Assembly (NCBI GenBank): GCA_028554645.1
Contig: JAQOOI010000036.1
Span: 1-64,000 of the forward strand
Direction: 5' to 3'
Length of the DNA: 64,000 nt
From: Omphalotus guepiniiformis
Taxonomy: Eukaryota > Basidiomycota > Agaricomycetes > Agaricales > Omphalotaceae
The position numbers and the translations under genes are program-made. Below, in pieces: positions 19,766 to 60,992 of the stretch. The notes beneath the pieces were generated by a model. The model was not told the origin of the DNA. It did not search any database and was given only the letters and a program-made list of their open reading frames with translations. Each line of letters opens with the position of its first letter. The first letter of the stretch is position 1.

Positions 19766-19784
19766 TGGAGCCCACCGCGAGGGG
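19766..19784 (+). promoter_or_regulatory. Primer-binding site of family A
   Basis: Begins TGGAGCCCACC three bases after the LTR, as expected for a site complementary to a tRNA 3' end (TGG pairs with CCA). The matching tRNA would have a U at the discriminator position and GCCCACC as its 5' acceptor strand. I cannot name the tRNA with confidence. Confidence 0.65.
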
Positions 19785-19936
19785 TGGCTTTAGACTTGAT
19801 AATTGAACTATCTGTGTATTTACACGTGTCTGGAAATAAATCTGGACTTTTCCTGTGTTAAACTTTGCCCTGTTCCTCACTTAGCAACAATTTCCTTGAA
19901 GTTGTTGAACCATCTATAAGTTTTATAACTTAGAGT

Positions 19937-23256: not shown

Positions 23257-23291
23257 TAAGAGATCAGGGAGAGGTAGCTGTTTGTATTGAA

Positions 23292-27335: not shown

Positions 27336-27536
27336 TAAACACACTATATTTGAACAAAGTAAGAGATAGACACTGAAAAGTGACTACCTAACTGCAGATG
27401 AAAGTAAAAAGTGGGTAACAGTAGTATGCACTACTAAGATAAATATAAAGGGTGTCTGAGGATGTCCTATACGATGTACCAATACCGTGTAAACTGCCCA
27501 TAAATGATACTGAGATGTCCAGATGTAACATTAAAG

Positions 27537-28930
27537 TCAGAGAATGTCTGCAGATGGGAAGGCATGGAAAGGAGCTGGATCATCAGCAGTACCTGGACCA
27601 GACTTCAAGGGACTCTGGTTGGCCCTGTAAGCCTTCTCCTTCTGTCTTCGGAGCAATTCCAGACGGGAAAACTCCTTGTAGGCAAATCTGTACTGAGAAT
27701 GATGATACTGAATGGCATGTTGATGAACACTGAGTTCTGTCTTCAAGAAGTTGGAAATTGATTGAAGAACCTCAGGAGAGAAGTGGTCCAAGTCCATGAA
27801 AGGGAACAGAGCAGTGATACGAGTCACAATCTCTTCTCCACTCTCCCGGAGTTTGCGCTCATCTGCAGGATAATTGAGTTAGATACTCGAAAAAGCCGCA
27901 GATTGGGTGACTACTCACGGTCTGTCTCCTCTCTAAGGTTGACGATTGGGTTCTCAATCCGAGGCTTCTTCATGACAATCACCTTGTGGGGCTCAGGAAT
28001 AGGTTCATTCTACATGAACATTTATAGTCAGTACATAAAACTGCATGAATATCTCCAGATGGAACTAAAAACGTACATCTTTGGGTCCAACTGAGGTAGC
28101 CTGCAAAGTTACCATGGTGCATCAGTCTAGAGAAACAAACAAACAGTTCTGGACATAAATTGGCTCACCCTTGGAGAAGTGATTACTACTCTTTCCTTGG
28201 AAGACTTATGAACTGTGGTAGTAGTGGAAGAACCTTTGGTCTTGTCCTTGCTAGAGTCCTTGTTATCCTTATTGGGAGCATGAATCGACGCAGAGAGCCC
28301 AAGAGAAGGTCCATCTGCCATCTAAGAAAAGAAAGACCATGTTGAGATTTGAGTTAGATACTCAGGAGTTTGATACTTACAGTAACGTCTCCGTCACCAG
28401 TAATGACCTCAATCTCTTCATCGTCATCATCGTCATCCTCAATGAGTTCAGGAGTTTTAGCTGGCTACACACCGATAGGCAGTTAGATACTCGAAATGAG
28501 AGGGATGGTCAATAAAAACGTACTTTGCGCTTCTTAGATCCGCTGAGAGTCTCTCTGCGCTTTGCCAAGTCGTCCCGGAAAGCTTTAATGGCGGAGAAAG
28601 TGTCAGGTTCACCTACAGATGGGAACTTTTTGACTGCATCTGCGACCAGATTGACACCTTTGTCGAACAAAGTGAACGCTTCCTCGGACTTAGCAACTGC
28701 ATATGCAGGCAGAGACTTCTTCTGTAATAAGAAATCAAGTTAGATACTGGACCTGGAATCAAAGATTGAACATTTACAAGATGACTAGCAAGGGCTGTAA
28801 TAAGCATCCCAAGCAGTTCAGTATCCGCATCTTTGGCCTCCATGGCTCCAGTAGCTCGAGAAAGATATCGCTGCGTTGTGGCAACCCATTCAGGACGCTC
28901 AGGCCAAGTCTTGGGACCTTTAGGGGCCAT
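27537..28930 (-). CDS. Antisense accessory gene 1 of family A (spliced, unknown function)
   Basis: Minus-strand gene opposite to gag-pol. It starts MAPKGPKTWPERPEW at 28,930; exon 1 has 51 codons. Intron 1 is 28,722-28,777 (56 bp, GTAAAT...TTACAG). Exon 2 encodes KKSLPAYAVAKSEEAFTLF and a basic KKRK end. Later exons encode an acidic stretch (DDDDDDEE), a Ser/Thr/Lys-rich part with SIHAPNKDNKDSS, and a C-terminal exon with FPFMDLDHFSPEVLQSI followed by a charged helix (RLELLRRQKEKAYR). The stop is at 27,537-27,539. I recognise no domain family. A decayed homologue lies at 7.4-9.0 kb in the same position. Exon joins after exon 2 are tentative. Confidence 0.65.
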
Positions 28931-29770
28931 AACTGTAAAATATAGAGATAAAGAAATGATAAAAGTGGAAGGGATGTAGAACCAAGTAATAGATGGTGCT
29001 GAGTCGTTCTGAATCTGCGCTGCACCTTTTATATCTGGTCTACCCCGTCTAAATCTGCACGTTGGTCATTACTCCTATGCTGTTCAAACAGGCACCATGC
29101 GGCCTAGCCAGCGTAGCAGATTGATCAACGGGGACGTTGAAGTTACTTTTACTTGGGGGGAGAGAGCACACAAAGTTGACAAGGCCAAAATTTTGAATTT
29201 TTGAAATTTCAAATATCTCAAATCTGGAGATCTAGACAGCTTTGACCGCAGAGGACTTAGCCGAATAGCATTGCCGAGTAACCGAGAGCTCTCAACCTTG
29301 ACAGAAAGGACTTATTAAATTCAATGTATCCTCAAAAAGAAACGATACTTATTGAAAATTGTGGGCTTAAGTCATTTAAAGAATTGTTTCCCTCTAGAAT
29401 CGAGTTAGATACTCAATTTGAAGGAGACTCTCAATATGATTTCTTATGTTTCACACCAGATTCATGCCAAGAAAAATGAAATATGTATTTTTGAGCATAG
29501 AAGCTCAGGACTATAATAAGAGATACTTCGACCTATACTACTATAAAGTAAGTACAGGGAGTATCTACAGAAAAAGCGATGTATAAAATTTTTATATATT
29601 TGGGCAACCTGGTGTGTTGAACACCAAGGTCACCCGCGACGAAATGCAAACGGATACGGCAGGTCCCAGCCAAGCGAAGAGAACGGCAGATCTGTGAGAT
29701 TGGGACTGAGAGATGGAGAAAGTAAAGGGAAAAGGGGGTACGAACTATGTGCGCACCCGAGCCTTGAAAG
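28931..29770. other. Spacer between antisense genes, likely promoter of gene 1
   Basis: No coding sequence found. It should contain the minus-strand promoter of gene 1. A CTTGGGGGGAGAGAG tract at about 29,151-29,165 resembles the element's own polypurine tract and could be an internal plus-strand priming site. A TATATTT-type stretch lies near 29,590-29,600. Confidence 0.4.
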
Positions 29771-32197
29771 TCACTCTGAGAGGGGATCGTCCCTCCCAGC
29801 TAGTGGACTGCTTTCTGGCACTAAGACCCTGCCCGTCGTCTCCTCCTCCAGCTCGTCCTCCTTGTCCTCATCCTCTTCGACCGTGACTTGCGAGGCACCG
29901 ACCGCCTGAGGCGATTCGTCGATGACTGTAGCAACGGGAGTGGAAGGAACATGGGATGGACCAGCTTGCTGCTCGACCTCTGGATCCACCACGACGAAAC
30001 GACCAGATTCGTTCCTAGCGATATAGCTTGCCCGAGACACCAGGTTGATGTCCCATCCAAGCGCGGTAGCCAGTAGTTTGAGCTGTTCGTCCGAATAGTC
30101 GAATGTCGGGTCGCCAGTCTGAACCTGATGTAAAACGAGACGAGGATCGAGACACGAAGCCTTGATATGATCTTGACGCTGCAAGATCGTCCAGTGTACC
30201 CGTTCCATCGCTCGCATCTGCGCGGAGACGCTGTTCTGCATGTCCTCGTAGGTGTCGATGAGAATCTGCAACTGCTCAGCTTCCTGAGAGACAACTAAGA
30301 AACGAAGAACCTTTAATAAAAGATGTCTAAAGAAATGAAAGGAATACTTACCTGCACTGCCGCTGCGAGCCAACGTGTATGAAAGGCATCGCAACTGATC
30401 GCTGCCTTCCAAACCATACGACCAGCTACAGGTGTGGTTGTCCTTTGCGCAGGTAGCGCAGCGCCACTCGAATGTCTTGCTGTTAAGTTGGGGACGGCAT
30501 TCCCGCCCTTCTGTGTGTGTACCACCTACGCACGAAGCACAGATGGAGTCGCCAAAGAACTGAATAATGATAAAAGGGAATATTAGTGAACATCTATCTC
30601 GAGTCAGAAAGATACTCACCCTGTCGAATGTGCGGTTGACTGAAACGAGCTGTTGCAAAGTAACAGGACGGCCATAAGGCCATCCAAAGACAACACGGCC
30701 TGTAAAAGAACTGTTAAACAAACGCTAGAAAAATGAAAGTGAAGGATACTTACCAGGTACCTGCTCAAAGTCCTCCTTGGCACGATTCTGCGGCGTACGG
30801 CCATCTGAGCGCTAAGGAAGACATTGTCAGTAATAAGAGCTGAAATAAAAGAAATGATGAGACTTACGTTGAGATTGACGGGGGCCTTGGAACCCTCAGT
30901 CTTGACCAATTTCTCCTCTTCCTTCTTATCCTCTTCCTCGTCGCTGGAGGCTGGTACAGTGACTGGAGTCGCTTTCGAGCGAGTCTTTCGAGACGCTGGT
31001 TCATCGGCAGGCTCTTCTACCCGCATCTTCCGAATCTTTGGTCGTGGCTTGACCACCTGTTTACCCTTGCCCTGTGTAAGAAAACATGAGAAAAGAATAA
31101 ATAAATCTATAAAGAAAAACATACCTTTGAAGCTGCAGCTGCAGGCTTCTTACCTTCAGAAACGCGAGACTTCTTGACCGGAGGCTCAGAGCTCTCGGAC
31201 TCGAAGCCAGTGTCATCATCGTCGTCGTCGGTCAGCTCAGTAGATTCGGCAGTGGCTTCGACGTCGGAAATCTTGCGTTTCATCTGAGAATGATAAGACT
31301 AAGAAATGACAATTTTGAACAAAAGAAAAGACTTACTGAACGACCCGGTAAGGGCGTTACACCAGTCTTGGCCTTTGCCTTTGGCTGAGGTTTTGGTTTT
31401 GAAACCGGAGCCGGCGTCTTCGAGGATCCAGCGCGAGCGGCCTTAGCAGAAGAAGCAAGAGTGGCAAGAGGCGGGAGTAAGATCTCATCGTCGTCGTTGT
31501 CCTCCTCGAGCTGCGGAGTTTGCTTAAGCTTAGGAAATGGAGGTAGTGGTTCCCATAAATTGCGAAGCTGTAAAAGGTTAGCAAAAAGAAATGACACGGA
31601 TCTGAAAGATACTTACTGTATATTTGAGACAGAAAGAATCGAGCTTAGCGCGATTTAGGCCCCAAGGCGGCACAATAAATGAAGTTGGTTTTGCTTGGTG
31701 AAGCCATAGCGCGAGGTTGCATACGGAAAGAAAAGAACCTGTGAAATAGTCAGGGAGATGTGTATGTGCTCGCTGGCAGCGATTGAAAGTCAAAGCAACG
31801 CGAGTCTGTAAAGATGAGGTTAGCTATAACAAAGATGAAAAGAAATTGGTGCCTACCAAGGCAAGATTCAAGTCGTCAAAGGCGGAGGTAATGGTTTTCA
31901 ACCTGAGACCCTTGCCGAACTCCTTAAACGATTGGTCGCGTAGACGTCGGTCCAAGTCACCTAGTCTTGAAACGATGGCGGAAAGAGATTTATAGTCTTC
32001 TTCATTCATGTCTGCGAGCTGTGAGGGAGAAAAGGAAAGAAAGAGGCCGTCAATTGAGAACGGTTCTCGAATATATATGTGACACACTGTGAAAAGCAGC
32101 GCGTGAGAGAAAGGAATTAAAAAGGACTTACCGGTACCTCGGAAGGCTCCCTACTGAGAGTAATAGAGGAAGCCAATTGCCTTGAAAAGTCATCCAT
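29771..32197 (-). CDS. Antisense accessory gene 2 of family A (spliced, Cys-rich)
   Basis: Minus strand, start MDDFSRQLASSITLS at 32,197, many exons with short introns. Segments in order: MNEEDYKSLSAIVSRLGDLD; NRCQRAHTHLPDYFTG; an acidic linker with long basic, Ala/Pro-rich parts (KPKPQPKAKAKTG; KKSRVSEGKKPAAAASKGKG); GWPYGRPVTLQQLVSVNRTF; a Cys-rich motif with CASC, then CRP, CATC and a final C; QDHIKASCLDPRLVLHQV; LLATALGWDINLVSRASYIA; and an acidic C-terminus ending at 29,771. The Cys pattern suggests a zinc-binding module and the basic linkers fit nucleic-acid or chromatin binding, but both are inference. Homologues occur at 12.1-14.3 kb and 1-2.1 kb. Exon ends are approximate. Confidence 0.7.
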
Positions 32198-32490
32198 CGG
32201 GGGACGGAGTGAGATGTGAAAAGAAAAACGAGAATCACTGTCTGTTTAAGTTGAAACTTCGACAGAAGCAGATTGCGGGTTTCGCCGAAGTCTGACATTG
32301 CCGTCACATGCCGATGTAAATGTATTGACTGGCGATCAATCGAGAAAAGTTTTGCCTAATGGCAGTCCGTGAAACGTGATATTGTGATATTGAACAGTAT
32401 GAAATGCGCTTCTATGACAAATCTGCTAGTAATAATTGTATCTAACTCGATTTTGGCCAATCTGGTACGATCGGGGACGATCTTATTTTA
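32198..32490. other. Upstream region of antisense gene 2
   Basis: About 290 bases between the gene 2 start and the polypurine tract. It must hold the minus-strand promoter unless transcription starts in the 3' LTR. No ORF and no clear TATA box. Confidence 0.4.
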
Positions 32491-32502
32491 CTTTGGGGGA
32501 GA
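32491..32502 (+). promoter_or_regulatory. Polypurine tract of family A
   Basis: CTTTGGGGGAGA directly abuts the 3' LTR start TGTTGCG, as expected for the plus-strand DNA primer. The relic copy keeps a mutated version before 14,553. Confidence 0.75.
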
Positions 32503-34345
32503 TGTTGCGTCAAAAAGCCTTTCAGTGCTGAAATCCATCAGATTGAAGTAAATATGGAATGTTCAAGCATTGGAAACTGAACATAAAGGACTAGAGTCAC
32601 CCCAGACTGCTAGTTAAGACATGAAACATACTTGTACTCACAATGCCTAAGTGTAGTGATTGCTACAGTACTGAATCTGGTACTAAGCAACTGTGACCAA
32701 TGGGTTATACAAAGAGATACTAGTTATGCCTCTCCAGATGTGTTGGAATTCCAATGTTCCATACCAGATTGAGTTGGTCAGACCCACCCTCTAATAACTA
32801 GAGACTCTACCAAGTGTTGTTGACTGTAATCCAAGGGGTTGATGGATTTTCACTTCAATTGAACAACTATCTAAGTCCTTTGGACTGATCAAAAGTTCCA
32901 GCTGGTCTTGCTAACTAAGTTGGCACCATAAGATTGAATGCTGAGAATATGGGCAATCTTGCAGATTGTATTACCAGAGAAATATCTGTACATTGAGTAC
33001 TATGTGAACATAATGTCACTAAGATGAAATGCCAATCTGTGTAATAATGGAAGTAGATTCAAAAGTTACATCTGCACAAATGAGTTAGCTACTCAATACT
33101 CATGATGGAAGGAGTTAGATACTGAAAATGAGTATCTCTCTGGATCTGAGTATCTCTCTGAAATTCAGTAACCCTCTGAACTTGATGAAAGACAAAGGCA
33201 CTCTAATTGGAGGTCTTAGACGAAACTATGGGATAGAATACTGTCCTAGGAGAAGCTGAGAGCTATCCTAAACAAGAAATATAACCTGAGTACAAATCTG
33301 ACCAAAAAGAGATGTATAGGGGTAAAACTTGAAATAAACAGTTACTGTACCTTACTGTGGCTGATAGAAACGATGAAGCATGGTCTAGATAAGCTCTAGA
33401 GCTTCTACACAACTCCTAATGCTGCCCTAGTAGAGGAGAATGTGCCAATTTTGGAGAAACTTATAGGGGACCAGATTTGCAATGCACTAAGGAGAATGTC
33501 ACCTGTCAGGATACTGGTTGCTATTTACAGGATCTGGACCTTTATTTAGATACCCTGGGTACGCCCTAACACACCTAGAACGCGGACAAAGCGATATATT
33601 TCTGTTTTTATACCAATCTATACCCACAGTGCCTACTTTTGACTATCTAACTGGAAAATTACCTAGAAAACTACCTAAAAAGAATCCAATCTCTGCTCAA
33701 TTGATACTTACTTACTTTTGACTCATTTACTGTTCAGATTACTCTTTTAATTTTGAGATATATGTTTGATTTTATGATTTAGTATATATAGCTTACAGAG
33801 TATCTATTTAGATTTTCTTAAGCAAGTACTGCCCAAAGCTACAAGCCAAAGCAGGAAAACCTTCTTAGACGAAATATAGCCTGGCTCTTTAGAGTTCAGT
33901 TCGAGAAATATCCAGTTGTGAAAACTTCTGTAAAGTCCCTTGTGGCAGATAAATTGAAAGAGATACTGAATCTTTGCTGAAACTGCTGTTCTGTCTGTGC
34001 TGAATCTGCCTGCTGAAACTGTCTGTGCTGCATCTGAAACTGTTCCCTGCATTGTCTGACCATTGGATCGAGTTTAAACATCGAGATTGATTGTCCTGAA
34101 TCCCTCCTGAACCCTGAAAACCACCCTTACCTTCTGTCTGAATCTTGTGTTTTGAGATACCCTCTGCCATTTTTCACCCAGATTGAGATAAAGACATCTG
34201 TAACCCTGCAGATTCAAAGTTCAATTGTTGCGTCTAACTGTGCGGAATCTCTGACAACGCCAGTCACACCTCACCCTACATCATTTTGATTTGAGTTGGA
34301 TTGTGCTCATTTGAGTATCTCTCTCGTTCATTTCATAGTCACTAC
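32503..34345 (+). repeat. 3' LTR of family A
   Basis: Same length (1,843 bp) and sequence as the 5' LTR apart from C at 34,231. It is followed by AACGG, the second copy of the target duplication, and then by LINE coding sequence. Confidence 0.95.
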
Positions 34346-35845
34346 AACGGCATAGTTGATGTTCTCCCAGATTGTGAAACCAGAAGACTGACGGCGGAAC
34401 ATTACCTACGACAGCTAGCAGTGATGACCCCGCTGAGAAAGTCGAGTGTCATACGCGACGACGGACAGATCTGGGGCTCGGATGGCTCTATGATACCGGC
34501 CGCAGCAACCATATTTGACACCCGGACAGTCACAGCAGCAATCACAGGTCTCACGACAATGATGTTAAAACTTAACAGAGTAGCAGCATTTATCACACAC
34601 GGCGAACTCCTAGGACTCATCATCGGCTTGTTACTGGCGGATGACTCGACGACAACACCCTGTCTCTATGCAGACCCACTTAATATCCTTTGCATCATTG
34701 ACAATTGTCAGATCAACCCAACTCACAAAATTTGCCTACGCCACATGAACGGGAGAGCTTACTATCACTGGCTCCTACACACTCTACAAAGCAAGACAGT
34801 CCGCATCGAACACACGAAAGCCCACACAGACAGCTCATCCGTTCCCTCGCTCATTAACGCCGAAGCTGATCACTACGCAACAACTGGTCAAAAATATCTC
34901 GAGATCATGCCATCTGCCCCCGTTCCCACCTTCTTCATAGACGACTACATCATACACTCGATGAAATTAGGCTGGGTTGAATCTAGTACACCATATTACG
35001 TTTAGCAGGTCATGGAACGAAGTATGGCTAAGGCACTAGCACACTCTCACATACTCAGGATGTCACGCTGGATCTACGAGCATCGACCACCTCACGACTT
35101 CCCATACACCAGAGCATACTCCGCTCATTCCGCCACAGTTCAACTGTACACTCGCTCTGGACAGTTAGCCACGGCAGATGTACTGTCCAGAAGAGGGAAA
35201 ATTGAGAACGGCAGCTGCAGGTTTGGCTGTTCAGCCACTGAAGACATGCACCACATCTTCGTGAAATGTGAAAGATACACAAAATGGAGGACTAAGGCTG
35301 CAGAGAAAGTGGAAACGAGAACCCGATGAAAACTAGAGGAGAAGGAAATCAACAGCAGAGAGGCAAAATTGCTGCTGGACGGAGCTAAGTTCCTCTTTTC
35401 CAATCACCCGATTATATGGCCACTCCAGAACACATACTATTATCTAGGGTACACACCCCCCCTCGAGAAATTAATCATCAGGCCACTTATACTCCATCAC
35501 ATATCTGCCAACTGGCACTTACACGCAATACAACTAGCAGAGAGGATATTTGGGGACCATCAAAGGGAGATGGCACGAAGAAATGACACGAAGACAACAC
35601 AACGGAGTAGGGTTTTCCTCGCTCAATGAAGGGAGTTATTAAACCGCCCCGAGAAGAGGTTTTTTACCCCCTCCACTTACTATACCAACTAGATAACTTT
35701 CAATTTTGCACAAAACCAGCATCGTCTGGCATTTTACTATACACTTTTACGATACACATCACTCCATAGTCTGGTTCGTCTAGGTTAACTACCCAACCTT
35801 AGTCCTTAGCTGACGTAGACGAATATCACGTTGTAAACATTGTAA
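34346..35845 (+). pseudogene. LINE fragment: RNase H and C-terminal zinc finger
   Basis: Continuation of the LINE split by the family-A insertion. The frame across the insertion is HNG before and IVDVLPDCETRRLTAEHYL after. RNase H is recognisable as WGSDGSMIPAA (Asp), THGELLGLI (Glu), CIIDNC (Asp) and EHTKAHTDSSSVPS...AEADHYA. After an in-frame TAG at about 35,003-35,005 a CRFGC...HHIFVKC zinc motif follows (35,210-35,290), then further coding to about 35,629. From 35,630 to 35,845 is probable 3' UTR. The stops mark it as dead. Confidence 0.85.
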
Positions 35846-39376: not shown

Positions 39377-39766
39377 TGTTAGAATCTAAGACAATGTACT
39401 ACCAGTGATACACTGATCAGACACAATGAATAGAATTCAATTACAGTTCACTGAGATCACTAAAGCGTTGTAATAGTAGCTTAATGCACAAGAATTGCTT
39501 TCCAAGTGTCTTAGATTTCTCCAGACATGTAAGGATTTACATATTGTTTGGTCTTGTTGTGTCAGGCCGCGCATGAGGCGTGAAAATGAGTGTCCACATT
39601 TTCGCGCGCGCTCTAAACACTCCAGAATGACCCTACATACATGGTATAACTATCTACAATAGGTATTAAAGTCATTAGTATAGTATTATATGTACTTGAG
39701 GGACTTTCTAATGATATGTACAGTATTTGTATAGTATCTACAAGTGTTCTAGCACTTCATTCAACA
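39377..39766 (-). repeat. LTR-C solo LTR (full length)
   Basis: 390 bp, minus-strand orientation (TGTTGAATGAAG ... TTCTAACA). It is flanked by TAGAT on both sides (39,372-39,376 and 39,767-39,771), a perfect 5-bp target duplication. The family has at least six further full or partial copies in the window. It is probably the LTR of the Copia-type element seen in pieces at 45-48 kb. Confidence 0.9.
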
Positions 39767-42186: not shown

Positions 42187-42458
42187 TGTTGGATGAGCAA
42201 TAGAAGACCTGGTGCTAACCCCACCATTGAGTGTTAGAGTGTTAACACCACCCATAGCGAGATGGACTAACCTCCATACTCTGCCAACAGCGTGATAGCT
42301 CAGTTGGTTAGAGCACCAGTTACGCGTGCTGGGTGTTGCTGGTTCAATCCCAGCTCATGCCAATACATTCCCCCTGCTTTGTTATGTGGTCACTTGACTG
42401 TAAGCAAGTTGCTGTCATTAATTTGGCCTTGCTTATCTAGAGCTCTTGATTCCCAACA
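42187..42458 (+). repeat. Solo LTR of the tRNA-bearing TRIM family (variant)
   Basis: 272 bp, TGTTGGATGAGC ... GATTCCCAACA, flanked by CAATA on both sides (42,182-42,186 and 42,459-42,463). It differs from the TRIM LTRs at many positions, including a small duplication (GTGTTAGAGTGTTAAC), so it is an older or different subfamily. It carries a full-length tRNA-like module. Confidence 0.9.
42289..42361 (+). tRNA. tRNA-like module in solo TRIM LTR
   Basis: 73 nt fold as a cloverleaf: the acceptor AGCGTGA pairs with TCATGCC except at the first pair, D stem is GCTC/GAGC, anticodon stem CCAGT/GCTGG, T stem GCTGG/CCAGC with loop TTCAATC. The anticodon loop is TACGCGT, so the triplet at 34-36 would be CGC, but the usual U33 is A. 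It is probably tRNA-derived and not a working decoder. Confidence 0.55.
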
Positions 42459-42649
42459 CAATATATATAAGAAAGTAAGCTATATAAGAAAGTAAGCAAA
42501 GAGTCATAGGCACAACTATAATTTATATTATCCCACTCAATACCTCCCACATTATTGTTGGATGAGCAATAGAAGACCTGGTGCTAACCCCACCATTGAG
42601 TGTTAACACCACTCATAGCGAGATGGACTAACCTCCATACTCTACCAAC

Positions 42650-42722
42650 GGCATGATAGCTCAGTTGGTTAGAGCACCAGTTATGTGTGCTGGGAGTCGC
42701 TGGTTCAATCCCAGCTCATGCC
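42650..42722 (+). tRNA. tRNA-like module in TRIM 1 left LTR
   Basis: Perfect 7-bp acceptor stem (GGCATGA/TCATGCC), D stem GCTC/GAGC, anticodon stem CCAGT/GCTGG (one G-U), 5-nt variable loop, T stem GCTGG/CCAGC with loop TTCAATC, and A at the discriminator position. Internal Pol III A box TAGCTCAGTTGG is at 42,657-42,668 and B box GGTTCAATCCC at 42,702-42,712. The anticodon loop is TATGTGT: the triplet at 34-36 would be TGT (Thr) but position 33 is A instead of U. No TTTT terminator follows in the element. Confidence 0.65.
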
Positions 42723-42819
42723 AACATATTTCCCCTACTTTGTTATGTGGTCACTTGACCGTAAGCAAGTTGCTGCCATTAATTTGGCCTTGTTTACATG
42801 GAGCTCTTGATTCCCAACA

Positions 42820-42875
42820 TGGTAGCAGTAATTTGTAATTGAAGTTCCCTGACCCGGTCTTCAATTGGGGGGCTG
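42820..42875 (+). promoter_or_regulatory. TRIM 1 internal domain (PBS and PPT)
   Basis: 56 nt. Primer-binding site TGGTAGCAG at the left end, polypurine tract TTGGGGGGCTG at the right end, and between them an 8-bp inverted repeat AATTGAAG ... CTTCAATT that could form a hairpin in the RNA. The same 56 nt occur in TRIM 2. Confidence 0.8.
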
Positions 42876-42969
42876 TGTTGGATGAGCAATAGAAGACCTG
42901 GTGCTAACCCCACCATTGAGTGTTAACACCACTCATAGCGAGATGGACTAACCTCCATACTCTACCAAC

Positions 42970-43042
42970 GGCATGATAGCTCAGTTGGTTAGAGCACCAG
43001 TTATGTGTGCTGGGAGTCGCTGGTTCAATCCCAGCTCATGCC
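42970..43042 (+). tRNA. tRNA-like module in TRIM 1 right LTR
   Basis: Exact duplicate of 42,650-42,722 at an offset of 320 bases, with the same cloverleaf and A and B boxes. Confidence 0.65.
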
Positions 43043-43144
43043 AACATATTTCCCCTACTTTGTTATGTGGTCACTTGACCGTAAGCAAGTTGCTGCCATT
43101 AATTTGGCCTTGTTTACATGGAGCTCTTGATTCCCAACAATTAT

Positions 43145-44757: not shown

Positions 44758-45189
44758 TGACAGACATCATCATGAAGACGCCAGTTCAGTCTGCACACTT
44801 GATGTAGATGAAATTGATGCTTATATGGCTATAACACCCTATCAATGCTCATCCCACCTGTTTGCTATTGATAAGGGTAAAGGGTGGGCTGAGATAGCAT
44901 CAGTCTCACCTCTTGTATTGCCCCCTCCTTGCTTCTCTAAGGAGGTCATGCCCTCTCCTCTTACCAGCAGCAGTTAAGGGAGGATTACACCCAGTAAGCA
45001 TTTCTGGTTTTTATACTTTAGCAAACTTCTGCTAATTCCATGCTAGATGGTATTGATTATGAGAGACATCCCAAACAAGATTTTGAGCACACCTTATGTT
45101 AGATTGAATTGATATGCACTGTCTCAATGCCAATATAGGCTCTGCTCCTCACCCTTCTACTGCAACTTCTCAGGGCCCTGTAATAGAAG
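44758..45189. other. Unassigned stretch between Helitron and Copia relics
   Basis: A plus-strand frame at 44,738-44,974 (DASSVCTLDVDEIDAYMAI) looks protein-like but is unrecognised; it may be an exon captured from a host gene. The rest shows nothing. Confidence 0.3.
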
Positions 45190-45305
45190 AATTGCTTTCC
45201 AGGTGTCTTAGATTTCTCCAGACATGTAAGAATTTACATATTGCTTGGTCCTGTTGTGTCAGGCTGCGCATGAGGCGTGAAAATGAGTGTCCACATTTCC
45301 GCACG
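45190..45305 (-). repeat. LTR-C fragment at the Copia 3' end
   Basis: Matches the middle of LTR-C. It follows the truncated Copia RT directly and in the same orientation, as a 3' LTR would after an internal deletion. This is the best positional link between LTR-C and the Copia coding pieces. Confidence 0.65.
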
Positions 45306-46450
45306 ATGAGGACCATATTCAAGCTTCATGTCCATTGTTCCCTTCAGATATCTGAATGCTTGCTTTACTGCAACCCAGTGTGCCATGCCAGGATTTGAAT
45401 TGAACCATGCCAATACACTAGCTGTGTATGCAATGTCAGGATGACTGGTGGTAGCAAGATACAACAAGGAGCCAACAGCACTAATATATGGAATTTTGGC
45501 CATCTCTTCCTTTCCCTCAGCAGTCTTTGGACATTGTGCAGTTGACAGAGCAGCTCCTGGATCCATGGGTGTACCAACAGGTCTACAGTCAGACATTCCA
45601 AACTCATTCAGTTTGTTGACAATATATTGTTTCTGACCCATATACAATTTTCTCTCCTTTCTATTTCTTGTGATTTCTATTCCCAGCAGATATGATGTAG
45701 GACCCAGGTCACAGAGTTTGAAGTGCTTTGCTAGCTCTGCCACAAAGTGGTCCAAAGATGCCTCTGACTTGGAAGCAAGAGTGATGTCATCCACAAAGAC
45801 AGGTACAAAAACCTTAATGTCATCTTTCTGATAGACATATAGGTTTGGATCAGACTGGGTGCAACTAAAGCCCATTGATTGTAACACTCCTGCAAGCTTC
45901 TCACCCCAAAGTCTGGGTGACTGCTTTAACCCATACAGGGACTTGTTCAGCCTGCAGACAAATCTAGGACCACACTCCTTGAACCCCTCTGGCTGTGTCA
46001 TGAAGATCTCTGTATCAATGTAACTATTGATGAATGCATGAGAGATATCCACAGAGTGCAAATGCAAGTCTTCAATGGCAGCTAGAGCAAAAATAGTGCG
46101 GATTGTAGTCTGTCTCATAGTAGATGAGAATGTCTCTAGATAGTCAAAGCCAGGTCTTTGGCTGAATCCTTTGGCAACAAGTCTAGCTTTGAACCTTTCA
46201 ATGGATCCATCAGCCTTGTGCTTTATCTTGAATACCCAGTTAGATCCAATTGCTCTCTTATCTGGTGGAAGTTCCACAACATCCCAAGTGCCATTGGTGA
46301 GGTGTGCATTCATCTCCATCATGGCCTCCTGCCATTGTCTGGCATTAGGTCCTTCCATAGCCTGCTTGAATGTCAAAGGCTCTGGACCATTGTCAGTCAT
46401 GATGTGGGCTTCCTCCATATTATCATCATCATCTGGCACATCTGCATTGT
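45306..46450 (-). pseudogene. Copia reverse transcriptase, truncated before RNase H
   Basis: Minus-strand ORF starting near MPDDDDNMEEAHIMTDNGPE. Clear Ty1/Copia RT: EAMMEMNAHLTNGTWDVVEL, KARLVAKGFSQRPGFDYLETF, LHSVDISHAFINSYIDTEIF with a catalytic Asp, LNKSLYGLKQSPRLW, VPVFVDDITL with the catalytic Asp pair, then SHPDIAYTASVLAWFNSNPG. About 380 codons are open. It breaks off after YLKGTMDMKLEYGP into LTR-C sequence, so RNase H is missing. Confidence 0.9.
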
Positions 46451-46504
46451 ATCTGCATTGTTTTGCTTAGGAGCAGGGAGGTTCACTCTCCACCATTCAG
46501 CTGC

Positions 46505-46985
46505 TGCCAGTGCCCCACAGCCTAACTGGGCAAATATTGGGAATTCTCTCAACATGCTAGCTGTCCAGCTACCCAACATGCCCAACACAGTATATCTCCA
46601 AGCCTTTGACACTGCTCATATGATGACAAACCTTTCCACTCAGAACCTGATGGTGGCTATCCTGGCAATTCATGCCAATATCTTGCAGCTTGTTGATGGC
46701 GTGAATGCTATCCAAGGCAATGTGAATGCTATCCAAGACGGGTCGGTGTTTTCCTGATTTGCATTTTTGTTGGTATCTGATTCAACTCATCAAGGCTTCG
46801 GCTTACTCCTATCTGCATTGCCAATGGACATGCCTCAAGTGATGCACCAATTCACTACCCCAGCACCATTTGTCGGTGGTGGCCCTCTACCCACTACACC
46901 TGCGCAGGTGCGCAACCTCACCAGTAATTGATAATCCCTTACTTGGTATACAGTTGCAATGTCTTACTGAATACTCCAAGGTCAA
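46505..46985 (+). other. About 480-bp insertion in Copia linker, with plus-strand exon-like sequence
   Basis: The Copia linker is interrupted between a segment ending ALRAAVQA (46,990) and one starting AAEWWRVN (46,505). The inserted DNA reads on the plus strand as SLNMLAVQLPNMPNTVYLQAF followed by repeats of VNAIQGN, then after a possible intron MPQVMHQFTTPAPFVGGG. It looks like pieces of a coiled-coil protein gene. I do not recognise it and see no clear target duplication. Boundaries are approximate. Confidence 0.4.
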
Positions 46986-48262
46986 GCTTGCACAGCTGCC
47001 CTTAATGCTTTGGCTGGTGCTCCAGGAGCCTGTCTCTTCCGCTCAGACCTACAGGGAGCAATTGGTCTATTATCTACAGGGACATCCTCACGTGGTTCAA
47101 TCTGTTCCTCCTCTTCAGAACTATCATTATCTCATTCTGCTCAGGGCCAGTATTATCTTGTTCTGTAGAGGACTCAGGTTCAGGTAATGCAGGATCATCT
47201 GACTCAGAGTCAGAGTCAGAATGAGGATTATCATAGAGAGGAACATAGGAAGTATTGGGTGGTGTACTAGTTGAAGGTTTGGAAGGTGGTTGTGATGAAC
47301 CAACTTTATAAGTGTACCTCTCATCAAAGTCAGCTCTCTCACTGATCACAACCTTCTTGGTGACAGACAAGGTTCACAAACAGGATCTGGCTTTGCATTA
47401 GAGTCTAGTTTCAAGCCCTCTGCCAAATTATCCCTCAACATGCGCAATATATCATCGTGCCCATGATGACAGAAGCGCCTGTGCCACAGCTTCAGATCCA
47501 GAGGTAGAGTTGTTGTCAAACAGAGGCTTTCAGACTTATCTATAGTATGTCCATTCAAGTATCCCACATTGCTTGCAGTAACACGTGCAGTAAAAAGAAT
47601 AGGACCATTTCTATCAAATTCCATTCTATCAGACCAAATATGTACATGAAAGCCTTTATGTTTTGTTAAGTACAGAACAGAAAGCAGATTATTTTTAAGT
47701 GAAGGTACATGTAGTACTCTACTAAATTCAACATCCCTAGATACTTTTCCATCAATGATTGGTCTAAACACAACATTTCCTACACCTTCAGAATATATAA
47801 TTCTATCATCAGCCAATTTAATAGGTACTCTATAGGGGGTATAATTCCTAATCCAATGGCGATGTGGTGTCATATGAGAAGTGGCCCCCGTGTCTGTATT
47901 CCAATCAAGTATGTCAGAAGATGAAGTATCATTAGAAGAGAATGTACTTGCACTGCCAGCACTTTCAACAACATCTTCCTCTTTCACAGCCTTATTGGCC
48001 TGATATCTCCCATTCCCACTCTTTCCTTCATTCCTTGCTTTCAAGGTGGGACATTCAGCCTTCCAATGCCCTTCCTTCTTGCAATAATAACAGAACCCCT
48101 TCTTCCAATTAGGCTTGATATAGCCTTGTGCTTTGGCAGCAGCATTGTTCACCTGCTCTGCCTGTCTTTTCAGATTTTGTTCTTCAGCAATGAAGTACTG
48201 AAGAATCTTGTCCTTGTCCAATGTGTCCAATAGCAGCAAGTTTGAGGTGAGGTTAGATTCTG
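46986..48262 (-). pseudogene. Copia Gag zinc knuckle, protease and pre-integrase; integrase core deleted
   Basis: Minus strand, read right to left: a helical Gag end (LLLLDTLDKDKILQYFIAEEQ), knuckle CYYCKKEGHWKAEC (C-x2-C-x4-H-x4-C), protease DWNTDTGATSHMTPH with catalytic DTG, and a pre-integrase domain (LWHRRFCHHGHDD ... CEPCL). At about 47,377 it jumps to the linker VVISERADFDERYTYK (to 46,990), so the catalytic integrase core is gone. The Gag end is cut by TRIM 2 and continues at 48,856. Confidence 0.88.
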
Positions 48263-48363
48263 GAGCTGTTGGGAATCAAGAGCTCCATGTAAACAAGGCC
48301 AAATTAATGGCAGCAACTTGCTTACGGTCAAGTGACCACATAACAAAGTAGGGGAAATATGTT

Positions 48364-48436
48364 GGCATGAGCTGGGATTGAACCAGCGACTCCCAGCACA
48401 CATAACTGGTGCTCTAACCAACTGAGCTATCATGCC
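48364..48436 (-). tRNA. tRNA-like module in TRIM 2 (left)
   Basis: Reverse complement of the TRIM 1 module, with the same perfect acceptor, D and T stems, A and B boxes, and A at position 33. Confidence 0.65.
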
Positions 48437-48683
48437 GTTGGTAGAGTATGGAGGTTAGTCCATCTCGCTATGAGTGGTGTTAACACTCAATGGTGGGGTT
48501 AGCACCAGGTCTTCTATTGCTCATCCAACACAGCCCCCCAATTGAAGACCGGGTCAGGGAACTTCAATTACAAATTACTGCTACCATGTTGGGAATCAAG
48601 AGCTCCATGTAAACAAGGCCAAATTAATGGCAGCAACTTGCTTACGGTCAAGTGACCACATAACAAAGTAGGGGAAATATGTT

Positions 48684-48756
48684 GGCATGAGCTGGGATTG
48701 AACCAGCGACTCCCAGCACACATAACTGGTGCTCTAACCAACTGAGCTATCATGCC
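48684..48756 (-). tRNA. tRNA-like module in TRIM 2 (right)
   Basis: Second copy of the module in TRIM 2, 320 bases from the first and identical to it by eye. Confidence 0.65.
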
Positions 48757-48850
48757 GTTGGTAGAGTATGGAGGTTAGTCCATCTCGCTATGAGTGGTGT
48801 TAACACTCAATGGTGGGGTTAGCACCAGGTCTTCTATTGCTCATCCAACA

Positions 48851-50168: not shown

Positions 50169-50505
50169 TGTTGAATGAAGTGCTAGAACACTTGTAGATA
50201 CTACTAATGACTTTAATACCTATTGTAGATAGTTATACCATGTATGTAGGGTCATTCTGGAGTGTTTAGAGCGCGCGCGAAAATGTGGACACTCATTTTC
50301 ACGCCTCATGCGCGGCCTGACACAACAGGGCCAAACAATATGTAAATCCTTACATGTCTGGAGAAATCTAAGACACTTGGAAAGCAATTCTTGTGCATTA
50401 AGCTACTATTACAACGCTTTAGTGATCTCAGTGAACTGTAATTGAACTCTATTCATTGTGTCTGATCAGTGTATCACTGGTAGTGCATTGTCTTAGATTC
50501 TAACA
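50169..50505 (+). repeat. LTR-C copy with internal deletion, no target duplication
   Basis: 337 bp, TGTTGAATGAAG ... TTCTAACA, lacking about 53 bases after position 33. Flanks (GGCTG and AATGT) do not match. The left flank GGGGGCTG is like the polypurine tract of the TRIMs, so this may be the 3' LTR of an element whose body has been replaced. Confidence 0.8.
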
Positions 50506-51075: not shown

Positions 51076-51253
51076 TGTTGGGAATCAAGAGCTCCATGTA
51101 AACAAGGCCAAATTAATGGCAGCAACTTGCTTACAGTCAAGTGACCACATAACAAAGTAGGGGAAATGTATTGGCATGAGCTGAGATTGAACCAGTGACA
51201 CCCAGCACACATATCATGCTGTTGGTTAGAGTATGGAGATTGCTCATCCAACA
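51076..51253 (-). repeat. TRIM-family solo LTR with deleted tRNA module
   Basis: 178 bp, TGTTGGGAATC ... CTCATCCAACA, flanked by GTTTC on both sides (51,071-51,075 and 51,254-51,258). About 85 bases are missing, including the D arm and A box; the T arm and B box remain in mutated form. Confidence 0.88.
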
Positions 51254-52174: not shown

Positions 52175-52560
52175 TGTTGAATGAAGTGCTAGAACACTTG
52201 TAGATACTATACAAATACTGTACATATCATTAGAAAGTCCTTCAAGTACATATAATACTATACTAATGACTTTAATACCTATTGTAGATAGTTATACCAT
52301 GTATGTAGGGTCATTCTGGAGTGTTTAGAGCACGCGCAAAAATGTGGACACTCATTTTCACGCCTCATGCGCAGCCTGACACAACAGGACCAAACAATAT
52401 GTAAATCCTTACATGTCTGGAGAAATCTAAGACACTTGGAAAGCAATTCTTGTGCATTAAGCTACTATTACAACGCTTTATCTCAGTGAACTGTAATTGA
52501 ACTCTATTCATTGTGTCTGATCAGTGTATCACTGGTAGTGCATTGTCTTAGATTCTAACA
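52175..52560 (+). repeat. LTR-C solo LTR
   Basis: 386 bp, TGTTGAATGAAG ... TTCTAACA, flanked by ACTGC on both sides (52,170-52,174 and 52,561-52,565). Nearly the same sequence as the copy at 39,377-39,766. Confidence 0.9.
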
Positions 52561-53290: not shown

Positions 53291-53653
53291 TGTTGAATGA
53301 AGTGCTAAAACACTTGTACATATTATACAAGTACTTGTACAAACCTTTAGAAAGTCCCTCAAGTACATTGAATACCATAGTAATAATACTTCTTGTAAAT
53401 AGTTATACTGTGTTTAGAGCATGTGCAAAAATGTGGACACTCATTTTTGTGCCTCATGTACAGCCTGACACAACAGGACCAAACAATACGTAAATCCTTA
53501 CAAGTCTGGAGAAATCTAAGACACTTGGAAAGCAGTTCTTGTGCATTAAGCTACTATTACAACACTTTAGTGATCTCAGTGAACTGTAATTGAACTCTAT
53601 TCATTGTGTCTGATCAGTGTATCACTGATAGTGCATTGCTTTAGATTCTAACA
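53291..53653 (+). repeat. Diverged LTR-C copy
   Basis: 363 bp with the family ends but more substitutions and a deletion before the GTGTTTAGAGC segment. Flanks CTTTT and GGTTA differ, so the target duplication is lost or was never present. Several CpG sites of other copies read TG or CA here, consistent with age. Confidence 0.8.
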
Positions 53654-55091: not shown

Positions 55092-55640
55092 GAGACTAGA
55101 CTCTAATGTGGCTGGCAAGATGTTGGGAATCAAGAGCTCCATGTAAACAAGGCCAAATTAATGGCAGCAATTTGTTTACAGTCAAGTGACCACATAACAA
55201 AGTAGGGGCATGTATTGGCATGAGCTGGGATTGAACCAGCAACACCCAGCCAACTGAGCTATCATGCCATTGGTAGAGTATGGAGGTTAGTCCATCTCAC
55301 TATGAGTGGTGTTAACACTCAATGGTGGGGTTAGCACCAGGTCTTCTATTGCTCATCCAACACAAGATGCATGCACATCCATTCCATCCCTCACACACCA
55401 GAGCTGAGACTGTGTTGGGCCTTATTCATTCTGATCTCCATGATGTTGGTGTGCATTCTCCTAGTGGATGATACTGGATCACATTTATTGATGACAAGTG
55501 GTGCTTTCATGCAGCACTTCCTCTGAAGAAGAAGAGTGATGCATTTGATGCATTCAAGAAGTACAAAGCTTGGGCTGAAAACAATAGGGAATATAACCCC
55601 TGCTACTACCTTGTTGCAGTGACCTGGCATCTCCTAAGGG
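55092..55640 (+). pseudogene. Copia integrase core fragment
   Basis: Continues the Copia gene of 54,098-54,790 on the plus strand. After removal of the TRIM-family LTR it reads AGKMHAHPFHPSHTRAETV, then LGLIHSDLHDVGVHSPSG with the first catalytic Asp, a TGA stop, YWITFIDDKWCFHAALPL with the second Asp, and KKKSDAFDAFKKYKAWAEN. It ends near 55,620. The third catalytic residue (Glu) is absent. This is the integrase part that the 45-48 kb Copia lacks. Confidence 0.8.
55121..55362 (-). repeat. TRIM-family solo LTR with shortened tRNA module
   Basis: 242 bp, flanked by CAAGA on both sides (55,116-55,120 and 55,363-55,367), inserted in Copia integrase. About 22 bases from the D loop through the anticodon loop are missing; acceptor and T arm remain. 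Confidence 0.9.
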
Positions 55641-56265: not shown

Positions 56266-58260
56266 ATGTCCGGAAAGTCATTGACCCCTAAGCTTAACAA
56301 GAAACAGTCGACCAAGAGTCTGAAGCAAGAGGCAAAAGCTTCGGGAACAGATGCCCCCAAAGCGAACAAACAGATGAGACAGACTTCCCCTGCCATGAGT
56401 AACTGTTAGAATCTAAGACAATGCACTACCAGTGATACACTGATCAGACACAATGAATAGAGTTCAATTACAGTTCACTGAGATCACTAAAGCGTTGTAA
56501 TAGTAGCTTAATGCACAAGAATTGCTTTCCAAGTGTCTTAGATTTCTCCAGACATATAAGGATTTACATATTGTTTGGTCCTGTTGTGTCAGGCCACGCA
56601 TGAGGCGTGAAAATGAGTGTCCACATTTTCGCGCGCGCTCTAAACACTCCAGAATGACCCTACATACATGGTATAACTATCTACAATAGGTATTAAAGTC
56701 ATTAGTATAGTATTATATGTACTTGAAGGACTTTCTAATGATATGTACAGTATTTGTATAGTATCTACAAGTGTTCTAGCACTTCATTCAACAGTAACAA
56801 CCCTGCAATTCCCCCACAAATCCTGACAACGATTCCACTTCCGTTCACACTGTCGGGGTCTATTGTAGCGAAACAAACCAATACTTTGGTAGATTTGAAG
56901 AAGACGAGCACAGCTGACACGAGTTCTAAGAAAAGGAAAGCGAAGAGTTCCAATGAGCCGTCGGACCCCATTGAACCCGGTTCCGAGAATAGTAGCGAAG
57001 CTAAAGAAGACGAAGAAGATGAGGATGCCGAAGAAGAGAGCTGAATGATAATTGACACAACTGGGAAAAAGTCAGCTAAGTCCTCCGACTCTAGAGGGAA
57101 AGGAAAAGCTATCATGAGTTCTAGTGCGCAGCCGGTCCAAAGTACCCCATCTACCCCGAACACGGCATCTCCTGCCTACTCATTCACGAATCTCATGTTA
57201 AACGCCTTCCCTTCTCAATCCTCGTCTCGAAATGCGTCTACAGCAGATCTAACCGCGATACCTGCCTTTGGCAAAGTAAAGATTTGACCTGATGCTGCCC
57301 CATCCTTCAGAAGTGCCCCATCCCCGATCATGATGTCGTCGATGCTACCTAGCATACCGGAACCCCCGCAGTGGGAAATTGTTCCAGATTACAGTGGCAT
57401 CTACACGAGTCTACGATACATTACTAGACCGTCGTTCAGTTACATGGACCTTTACGAAATGTCAAAAGAGATGACGGGCCCAATTCTTGTAGCCTCCATC
57501 AGTAAGGAGGTTGAGGCGGAGAAGGTTATAGCACAGGCCGAAGCGATCTGTCATTTTGCGGAGATACCTATCGAGGAGAAATTCCAACATGTTTGCATCC
57601 CATCATCCTGGTGGTCTTTAGCTGATGTAGGCACGATGGAAAGAAGAAACCAGCTAATCGAAATTGGGGCAGTATGCCACACGGGCACAGGATTTGCGAT
57701 CTTCTTCCATCAACTTGTTTTCCAATACGAGCTGAAGATCATTGCGATAGGAGGAGTCGATGGAGATAAAGATGGACCGATGGTTGAATGTGCTATAAAG
57801 CAGATGTCACCGGGGATGCGATGTGGAAATCAGATTGACTAACGAGGCGCAAGCGACGAATGTAGAGGACGGTAACAGAATTGTGTAGATCAACTTCAAA
57901 AATGACCTAGAGAGCGCGGAACAAATCTACTGCGTAGATTACATCCGACTCTTAGACAAAAACGGGTACAAAGTACGTCGTTGGCCGATCCGAGATCTCC
58001 TGACGTGTGGGATTTGTCACTCAGACGGACACGACTACTGCACTTGTAAATTCATGTGACAAAGGGACAGTTTCCTGTACAGATTGGAAAGCGAGGGAAG
58101 AAGGATGATGATGATGAGGCAGTTGAGAAGCGATCATGAAGGACAGATGGGAGGTAGATTCGATAACAGAAGCAGAAGCAGGACCGGAGGTAACAGTGGT
58201 CAGGAGAGCGTAGGGATGGAGCGTAACTTCCCGGATTTCAGCCGTGCGGCCCGTTACTAA
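56266..58260 (+). pseudogene. LINE ORF1 (zinc-knuckle protein), interrupted
   Basis: Starts MSGKSLTPKLNKKQSTKSLK. An LTR-C insertion at 56,404-56,793 splits it after PAMSN; beyond the duplicated GTAAC the frame continues NPAIPPQILTTIPLPF. A basic and acidic low-complexity part follows (KKRKAKSSN; EAKEDEEDEDAEEES), then a folded-looking part (SLRYITRPSFSYMDLYEMSK; HVCIPSSWWSLADVGTM). A CCHC knuckle CGICHSDGHDYCTC (C-x2-C-x4-H-x4-C) sits near 58,003-58,046, and an Arg-rich tail ends at 58,260. In-frame TGA codons at 57,042 and 57,285, a +1 shift near 57,820, and TAG and TGA codons further on show it is dead. It would bind LINE RNA. Confidence 0.75.
56404..56793 (-). repeat. LTR-C solo LTR in LINE ORF1
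   Basis: 390 bp, nearly the same as 39,377-39,766, flanked by GTAAC on both sides (56,399-56,403 and 56,794-56,798). It is one of the better-preserved copies. Confidence 0.92.
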
Positions 58261-60800
58261 CGTCTTGTCATGTCACCCGCGTAAATTTTCAAATCATGTG
58301 TACAATAGCTGTAGTAGGTCTGAACAATGTGAACGGGCACCAAAAGGTGCCGATTATGATTTACACATGATCTAGAACCGAAAAACAAAGAAAAGAAACA
58401 AAACAAACTAAAACAAAAAGAAACTGAGGAATATAAAGAAAAATGATTAGAAATGAAAGAAAATGTCAACGTTACAAGTGAATAGAACAAAGAATGGATG
58501 AGCAACGGAAATGAAGTCAAGATTGGACATAAGTCTTAAGAAAGCCGAATAATAAGAGTATGAATGCATAGTAACGCGAGGTAATATAATATGAACGCAA
58601 GGTATTATAATATGAACGCAAGGTATTATAAAGGAAAGGCCAGTACTACAAGAGATTAGAACAAAAGAATAGAAGAGCAATGGAAAAGAAGTCAAGAATT
58701 GAACATAAATCTCAAGAAAATTGAATAGTAAGAGCACGAATGCATAGTAACGCGAGGCAACAAAATGTAAATAACAAACAAACTTAAGTAAGAAAAGAAA
58801 CTAAAGGATATAAAGAAAAATGATTAGAAAAGGAAGGAAAAGCCAACGTCACAAGAGAACTGAACGGAGAATAGATAAGCAATGGAAATGGAATCAAGAA
58901 TGAACATAAGTCCTAAGAAAGTAGAATAGTAAGAGTACGAATGCATGGTAATGCGAGACAATATAATGTGAACGCAAGGTATGATAAAGGAAAAGCCAAC
59001 GCTACAAGAAAATAGAACAAAAGAATAGAAGTGCAATGGAAAAAAAGGCAAGAATGAACATAAATCTTAAGAAAATTGGATAGTAAGAGCACGAATGCAT
59101 AGTAACGCGAGGTAATATAAGAAAAATGATTAGAAATGAAAGGAAAAGTCAATGTTACAAGATGAGCAATGAAAAAGGAGTCAAGAATGAACACAAGCCT
59201 TAAGAAAGTCGAATAGTAAGAGTACAAATGCATAGTAAAGCAAGACAATATAATGTGAACGCAAGGTCCTATAAAGGAAAATCAATGTTACAAGAGAATA
59301 GAACAAAAGAACAGAAGAGCAATGGAAAAGAAGTCAAGAAAGAAAGAAAGCCTTAAGAAAATTGAATAGTAAAAACACGAATATATAATAACGCGAGACA
59401 ATATAATGTGAACACAACATATTATAAGGTAACAAAAGGAATATAAAATACAAAAGAGAAACTAAATGAAAACAAGAATGACATAGACGGAAGGGTAAAG
59501 GAATGAAGCTGTACGAAACCTAAAACAGGTGAAAACGAAAAGCAATGAAAAGAGAAAAAAGAAAACAAATCATAAGAAAAGTAAACAAACAGACAAGTCT
59601 CATACTGGAGTAAAAGAATTGAACAAAGTAAAAGAACTTGAGGGCAGTTATACAGAATAAGAAAAAGAACTTGAGGGCAGCTATAGGAATCCAGAGGAAG
59701 AATAACATGAAAAGAATAACTACAAATTAAAGAAGAACATAGCAAATAAAAATAGAGAACAAAAGGAACAATAAGAAGACAGAAAAGAAAGTAAAGTGTT
59801 AATAAGTAGGAATGTAAGGAAGAGTAGGACAGAGTAAGTAAACCGGAAACATAAAGCTAATAAGAAATCAAGAGAGTAAAGAAGTAAGAAATAATCTACA
59901 AAACAACACAAGAAAGAGCAAAACAAAAATTAAAGCTAAAAGTAAAGCAATGAAAAGAAACAACCCAAAGAATCAACAATAAAACAAGGAGAATAAGAAC
60001 AAGCAACACTCATGAAACAAAACACAAAGAGAAGAAACCGGAAAACTGAAAAAGCAACAATCAAAAAGAAACTAACAAGAAAACCAACAGCGACAAACAA
60101 ACAAGCTATTTCACGGAAAACAACCAACAAAGAAGTGAAATAGAATAGAATAGATAATCAATAGGTTGCAATATACACACTTAATAGGAATAAAAGAACA
60201 AAAGGAACAATAAGAAAACAAAGATGAGAATAGGGTGTAAATAAGTAGAAAGGTAAAGAAGAATAAAATAAAGTATGTAAATTGGAAGTATAAAACTAAT
60301 AAGAAAACAAGAAAAGATCAGATTTAAAGCAAAACATAGAAACAAGTATGAAATAATTTACAAAGTAATAAATAAAGAGCAAAACAACAAATTTAAGACT
60401 AACTAAAGTAATGAACCAAACCAACCTGAAGAACCAACACTAAAACAAGAAGAACAAAAACAAAAACAACACTCAAGAAACAAAACACAGAAAAGAAACC
60501 GGAAAACCAATAAGCAAAAGGAACCAACAAGAAAAATCTAGGGACAAATGAACAACCAAACTAATATATGAATAACAACCAACAAAGTAGTAAAAGAGAA
60601 CAGAATAGACAATCAACAGGGTATAACAAACACAATAAGATAACAAAGGACACCAAATTAGAATAGACTTAGACACACAAATCAAGAAGAAGTGCTAAGG
60701 AAGTAAGAGAGTGAAACCCAATAAAAATCTACCGTTAATGAGCATGTAACGCTAAACTGCTTAAAACAATGAACAAATGCATAACAAACAAATTCAATTC
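58261..60800. other. A-rich spacer between LINE ORF1 and ORF2
   Basis: About 2.5 kb of purine-rich, A-rich plus-strand sequence with no supported gene. The minus-strand frames here are Phe/Leu/Ser-rich artefacts of that composition. The left part is a degenerate tandem repeat. Such a long inter-ORF region is unusual for a LINE. Confidence 0.6.
58440..59410. repeat. Degenerate minisatellite in LINE spacer
   Basis: Imperfect repeats about 135-200 bases long. The marker motif GAATGCATAGTAACGCGAG or a variant recurs near 58,561, 58,738, 58,940, 59,092, 59,227 and 59,379, each preceded by AATAGTAAGAG-like and AAGAAAATTG-like segments and followed by GGTATTATAAAGGAAA-like segments. Confidence 0.7.
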
Positions 60801-60992
60801 ACTGGCTGTCCTGACCTGATAAACAGGCGGGACGGTAACGAGGGGGTAGGCGGCCCTGCTACCATCTGCTCGGAGGGAGGTAGTCTAAACATAAATGAAT
60901 TCCCCGAGGCTTAGCCCTTAGACAAAGCAAGGGCGAGGGCTGGGTACAATTCACAAGCCCCTGCTGCACCCAAAACAATTGAACAAACTGGA
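60801..60992 (+). promoter_or_regulatory. GC-rich structured island before LINE ORF2
   Basis: Sharp change from A-rich sequence to about 170 GC-rich bases. Small hairpins are visible: CCTG-ATAAA-CAGG near 60,814, and GCCCTT (60,914-60,919) pairing with AAGGGC (60,929-60,934). It ends just upstream of the ORF2 start. It may be a conserved untranslated structure of the LINE; this is inference. Confidence 0.4.

Follow-up and report, generated by a model that had tools for sequence, protein, structure and literature searches.

Within the window, by which we mean the whole 64,000-nucleotide stretch of Omphalotus guepiniiformis DNA that was analysed, positions 42556-43139 are a miniature LTR retrotransposon (TRIM) of the Helenus kind, with a tRNA-like module in each of its LTRs. 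We consider it probable that this element is transcribed by Pol III from the module and is copied and inserted by a Copia element with which it has its PPT/LTR edge and its genomic clusters in common.

Structure of the element and its tRNA-like module

The sequence-only reading had proposed a miniature LTR retrotransposon here, and all of its parts were confirmed: two LTRs identical across 264 nt, an interior of 56 nt with a PBS and a PPT, and a 5-bp duplication, the element totalling 584 bp. Its features are as follows (basis in brackets).

42551-42555, unstranded: left copy of the TSD, ATTAT (sequence; single ATTAT at the empty site on contig C16)
42556-42819, + strand: 5' LTR, TGTTGG...CCAACA (sequence and repeat comparison)
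42650-42723, + strand: tRNA-like module of the 5' LTR, Thr-TGT by ARAGORN, with A33 for U33 (ARAGORN, Rfam, fold)
42657-42668, + strand: box A, TAGCTCAGTTGG, predicted Pol III (sequence)
42702-42712, + strand: box B, GGTTCAATCCC, predicted Pol III (sequence)
42820-42836, + strand: PBS, complement of the initiator tRNA-Met 3' end, 17 nt with two G.U pairs
42867-42875, + strand: PPT, GGGGGG then CTG, abutting the 3' LTR (sequence; edge common to Copia)
42876-43139, + strand: 3' LTR, same sequence as the 5' LTR (repeat comparison)
42970-43043, + strand: tRNA-like module of the 3' LTR (ARAGORN, Rfam)
43140-43144, unstranded: right copy of the TSD, ATTAT (sequence)

The module measures 74 nt, one more than first given. 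Its minimum-energy fold is an exact cloverleaf (-29.0 kcal/mol) in which the acceptor, D and T stems are fully paired and the anticodon stem holds one U.G pair, so that the cloverleaf with boxes A and B read earlier from the letters was upheld by both fold and sequence. The covariance-model check agreed: Rfam RF00005 scored each module, in both LTRs, at 58.6 bits, far above the cut-off of 29 (E = 4.4e-10), and scores ranged from 52 to 61 bits across the full TRIM copies examined. Rfam at its gathering cut-offs returned only tRNA within the 64-kb window, and 5S rRNA, the trait of Cassandra, was absent from it. In 12 cluster stretches covering 120 kb there were 19 Rfam tRNA matches, all of them within TRIM LTRs by their coordinates.

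Capture from a tRNA gene had also been suggested, but no particular gene could be singled out, the best of five nuclear tRNA types (Thr left out) being Ile-AAT with 47/75 alignment columns and the common stretch TAGCTCAGTTGGTTAGAGC. The module was considered as its own primer and rejected by eye, its 3' end CTCATGCCA being mismatched to the PBS, which requires CTGCTACCA. Contigs C50, C64 and C80 of the assembly hold dense sets of tRNAs repeated within and between these contigs, and are probably mitochondrial DNA.

A young family with an empty site

We searched the organism's own genome (42.5 Mb, 80 contigs) with the whole 584-bp unit as query and found at least 46 TRIM matches, a lower bound because 40 of the 55 candidates were scored, with at least nine of full length. 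The module is present in all 18 LTRs of the nine full copies; copies beyond the window thus carry it, and it is no private insertion into a single progenitor. Among 45 aligned LTRs (shorter LTR fragments left out), the module was free of gaps in 40, lacked 21 nt in three and lacked 22 nt in two. The window itself holds four further units.

42187-42458, + strand: older solo LTR with module (Ala-CGC by ARAGORN); the C16 haplotype has the same LTR
48267-48850, - strand: second full TRIM, 100% identical, with a 5-bp TSD of its own
51076-51213, - strand: truncated TRIM LTR
55121-55362, - strand: solo LTR whose module lacks 21 nt and retains boxes A and B

This family is very young and well formed. 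The nine LTR pairs of 264 nt show two differences in total, and an exact 5-bp TSD flanks 24 of the 29 units with both ends readable (20/24 when shared sites are counted once), including eight of the nine full copies; the test covered 29 of the 30 two-ended units, C65:1616439 being left out for its short end. Some TRIM sites appear more than once in the assembly, on two or three contigs whose flanks agree. Such insertions were observed on the contig sets C16/C33, C12/C46 and C35/C49/C51, and the assembly seems to hold alternative haplotypes. Contig C16 is a reversed second version of the window region (23.4 kb matched, colinear, mostly 92-98% identity), and on it the site of TRIM 42556 is uninterrupted, with one ATTAT and 560/595 positions identical. 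While the solo LTR at 42187 is common to both haplotypes, TRIM 42556 occurs in one, and its exact empty site on the other indicates a recent insertion. No clean empty site was found on C16 for the copy at 48267, as the flanks there are rearranged. At another site the LTR is intact on C49 and lacks 22 nt on C35 and C51 with the same flanks, so that this loss probably followed insertion. The full TRIM at C27:70612 abuts the end of a Copia LTR (C27:70611) base to base without a TSD, perhaps as the joint product of both elements or through later recombination.

Promoter or tRNA gene

Elongator tRNAs carry U at position 33. In the TRIM, A33 was found in all 42 aligned LTRs that retain the anticodon loop, which makes the module, as judged from its sequence, likely a Pol III promoter rather than a decoding tRNA. 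Given this substitution we regard it as highly improbable that the TRIM spreads a functional tRNA gene (Thr-TGT) in the form of its module; the perfect cloverleaf and the Rfam scores of 52-61 bits among the full copies examined would suit such a gene, but Rfam and ARAGORN scores reflect fold and not function. In its available part, the published account of Helenus does hold that 15 fungal families could encode tRNA-His or tRNA-Thr (PMC10886601), which also speaks for a tRNA gene.

Letter variation points to the two boxes. It amounted to 0.6% in the columns of box A and 1.0% in those of box B, compared with 1.9% in the LTR upstream of the module and 2.9% downstream, among copies that are related and counts that are small. 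Over the whole module it was 2.05%, not below the upstream part, and therefore only the boxes stand out. The LTRs with the 21-nt deletion have lost the anticodon arm and retained boxes A and B; they occupy two sites with differing flanks, C16:1007235, where the flanks match over 4 bp only, and C16:1008462 (also C33:55121), with an exact 5-bp TSD. Where two young subfamilies differ within the module, they do so in the variable loop alone. Inspection by eye of the 94 nt 5' of the module showed no TATA box. All of this bears on the alternative that Pol II transcribes the same TRIM, as it does ordinary LTR elements, with the tRNA-like module as a passenger, which we think unlikely. An overall variation as high as that of the upstream LTR would agree with a passenger, as would the deletion form at two sites, by which an intact cloverleaf is dispensable; it is the low variation of the boxes and their retention in that same form, the confinement of subfamily differences to the variable loop and the lack of a visible TATA box that argue for Pol III. 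Avoidance of TTTT was tried as further evidence of Pol III transcription and discarded, P being 0.11 when the 320 nt of LTR and interior were dinucleotide-shuffled 2000 times; TTTT and AAAA are both missing from the element, and TTTT has been gained in two of 45 LTR copies.

A Copia family as candidate helper

The window also contains remains of one Copia family, here called the core Copia.

39377-39766, 50202-50505, 53291-53653 and 56404-56793: further core Copia LTRs
45187-48263, - strand: core Copia remains with gag, pre-integrase and RT pieces; candidate helper
52175-52560, + strand: core Copia LTR

Full copies exist elsewhere, for example at C46:264050-269362, with 390-bp LTRs (TGTTGAATGA...CTAACA) and a PPT edge as in the TRIM. 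Two copies that were read have 5-bp TSDs, and in one copy a frame encoding gag, integrase and RT domains is open; a chromodomain in the integrase was not among the six Pfam families found at E <= 0.001. Its protein relatives (120 of 286 listed) included, among those named by organism, a Sparassis crispa sequence at 51% and a Mycena chlorophos sequence at 43%, in keeping with an agaricomycete.

The 18-base PPT/LTR edge GGGGGCTGTGTTGNATGA occurs at 47 sites in the genome with at most one mismatch, nine of them in TRIMs and 38 in core Copia clusters, and its reversed control at none. Past this edge, the TRIM and the core Copia LTRs and interior have at most short matches at chance level. The TRIM interior starts TGGTAGCAGTAATTTGT, and the four initiator tRNA-Met (iMet) genes found end ACAAGTTGCTGCTA; with CCA added to the tRNA, 17 nt pair, two of them as G.U. 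The 17-nt pattern recurs genome-wide (<=1 mismatch) at ten sites, namely in the nine TRIMs and, on the opposite strand, at one iMet gene, where the sole mismatch falls at the point of CCA addition. The core Copia PBS is complementary to 14 nt of the iMet anticodon arm, in the version of three of the four genes. From these complementarities the two elements appear to split one primer tRNA, the TRIM using its 3' end and the Copia its anticodon arm.

The core Copia likely mobilises the TRIM, to judge by the clusters and sequence features that they have in common, among them 5-bp TSDs and a PBS that fits iMet in both, although their LTRs and interior agree no further than the PPT edge and the two PBSs are unlike, one matching the 3' end and the other the anticodon arm. 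The difference in PBS would be explained if the helper were a different Copia primed from the iMet 3' end, in which case the sharing of clusters would reflect common chromatin or loss elsewhere. We hold this to be improbable, since the 17-nt PBS occurs in this genome, with one mismatch allowed, only in the nine TRIMs and opposite the one iMet gene. Four of the 13 sites of AACATGGTAGCAG lie outside TRIMs (C14 twice, C22 and C78), and the closest that a reported Copia RT comes to any of them is 14 kb. The PPT/LTR edge, moreover, was found in the TRIM and the core Copia alone, again in favour of the core Copia.

Clusters of the TRIM and the core Copia

Core Copia RTs were defined by at least 70% identity, with 103 of 247 RT candidates scored and 40 of 152 in the search for Copia LTRs. 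At least 46 such RTs, together with the at least 46 TRIM matches, form about one cluster per contig on 18 contigs, with the TRIM on 16, the contigs here not being chromosomes and some being alternative haplotypes. The longest cluster spans 62 kb. The zone within 30 kb of a core Copia RT makes up 2.6% of the genome; it takes in 42 of the 46 TRIM matches listed, as against 3 of the 60 other Copia RTs and 7 of the 42 matches to a Gypsy repeat. This Gypsy repeat often lies farther out on the cluster contigs and also occurs on contigs without a cluster. Of the four TRIM matches outside the zone, which belong to C35, C49 (two) and C51, three are embedded in core Copia sequence, and the other has a core Copia LTR about 3 kb away.

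A preference of the TRIM for nesting in Copia was considered and dismissed: nine of 30 units lie inside continuing Copia sequence, no more than expected because the regions themselves are 32% Copia. Ty1 and Ty3 provide a precedent for insertion targeted to tRNA genes. The Copia joints in TRIM LTRs fall at LTR positions 42, 155 and about 72-77, and at 195 beside an old LTR piece; the module starts at position 95, and with just one of four joints immediately 5' of it, targeting of Copia to the modules was set aside as the numbers are too small.

Other elements were also observed in the window. Two direct repeats of 1844 bp, 99.9% identical (17920-19763 and 32503-34346), lie around a frame with Gypsy domains (19937-27335), and the whole of 17920-34346, some 16 kb, is probably one large and young Gypsy element. 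At 58401-60634 there are degenerate purine-rich tandem repeats with an AT skew of up to 0.58, followed by two long frames, the second with RVT_1; the region 58401-63735 resembles a non-LTR element.

The clusters may be centromere cores, a guess from their distribution over the contigs. In Ganoderma leucocontextum, according to the available part of the report, the Copia GlCEN427 is confined to one region per chromosome that is called centromeric with Hi-C (PMC10817607). The likeness is one of distribution, an agaricomycete Copia family occupying one region per chromosome there and about one cluster per contig here, but GlCEN427 was placed by Hi-C, whereas the core Copia was placed by contig distribution and has a tRNA-bearing TRIM alongside. 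It is conceivable, if quite unlikely, that a core-targeting Copia delivers a mobile tRNA-like Pol III unit to mushroom centromeres, that the splitting of the primer tRNA avoids competition for the same end and that scattered TFIIIC/Pol III sites shape centromere chromatin.

Relation to known elements

The TRIM belongs to a kind already known, and the family may already be in Repbase. A tRNA module in fungal TRIM LTRs had been put forward in the sequence-only reading as a new parallel to Cassandra; Helenus, however, is already described as a TRIM class with tRNA-like LTR sequence, fungi included, for which the group TRIMp3 was proposed (Kojima, 2024; PMC10886601). In the available sections of that account Helenus elements are 311-1263 bp long without coding capacity, have the boxes TRGCY...YGG and GGTTC in both LTRs and an interior that runs from a PBS to a PPT, have 5-bp TSDs in fungi, and form low-copy families with many solo LTRs (PMC10886601). 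The present TRIM agrees in all of these, at 584 bp and with 5-bp TSDs at 24/29 units. Many Helenus families give inconsistent tRNA predictions and most fungal ones have a PBS for the anticodon loop (PMC10886601), whereas the TRIM has a well-paired cloverleaf and a PBS for the iMet 3' end. Helenus is predicted to depend on Copia (PMC10886601); on this point the present TRIM gives mixed indications, an edge and clusters in common with the core Copia but an unlike PBS. Confinement to the clusters of one Copia is a feature of the present TRIM on which the same sections are silent (PMC10886601), and none of the open-access titles and abstracts dealt with a TRIM that bears a tRNA and is restricted to clusters of Copia or to centromeres. 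New here are the clusters common to a TRIM and one Copia and the apparent split use of one primer tRNA.

Cassandra likewise has a small-RNA gene with an internal Pol III promoter in its TRIM LTRs, but this is 5S rRNA in plants instead of a tRNA-like sequence in a fungus, and its Pol III transcription has been reported (PMC10886601, in part), while that of the present TRIM is predicted from sequence. For Helenus, too, Pol III transcription is a prediction without experimental proof, as Kojima states (PMC10886601). tRNA-derived SINEs are similarly short and non-autonomous with a tRNA-derived internal promoter; unlike them the TRIM has LTRs, a PBS, a PPT and a 5-bp TSD, and its insertion is therefore of the integrase type and not target-primed.

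A proposed cycle

In the cycle that we favour, Pol III would initiate at the 5' LTR's module or immediately ahead of it, continue through the interior and the second LTR, and run on into the flank. The TRIM RNA would be taken up into Copia particles, and there minus-strand DNA would be primed by the 3' end of initiator tRNA-Met and plus-strand DNA by the PPT; Copia integrase would presumably insert the product with a 5-bp duplication. The LTRs, the module, the PBS complementarity, the common edge, the TSDs, the empty site and the common clusters were observed directly, whereas the polymerase, the packaging, the priming and the choice of integrase are inferred. Against the cycle stand the one full copy without a TSD (C27:70612) and the harm that RNase P and RNase Z might do to genomic RNA by cutting a well-paired cloverleaf.

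This very young family, with the exact empty site of one insertion, a candidate helper present alongside it in the genome and a small number of copies in defined clusters, opens two questions to direct test. One is whether a tRNA promoter allows Pol III to produce the genomic RNA of an LTR element, and the other is whether the landing site of such a passenger is set by the integrase of its helper.
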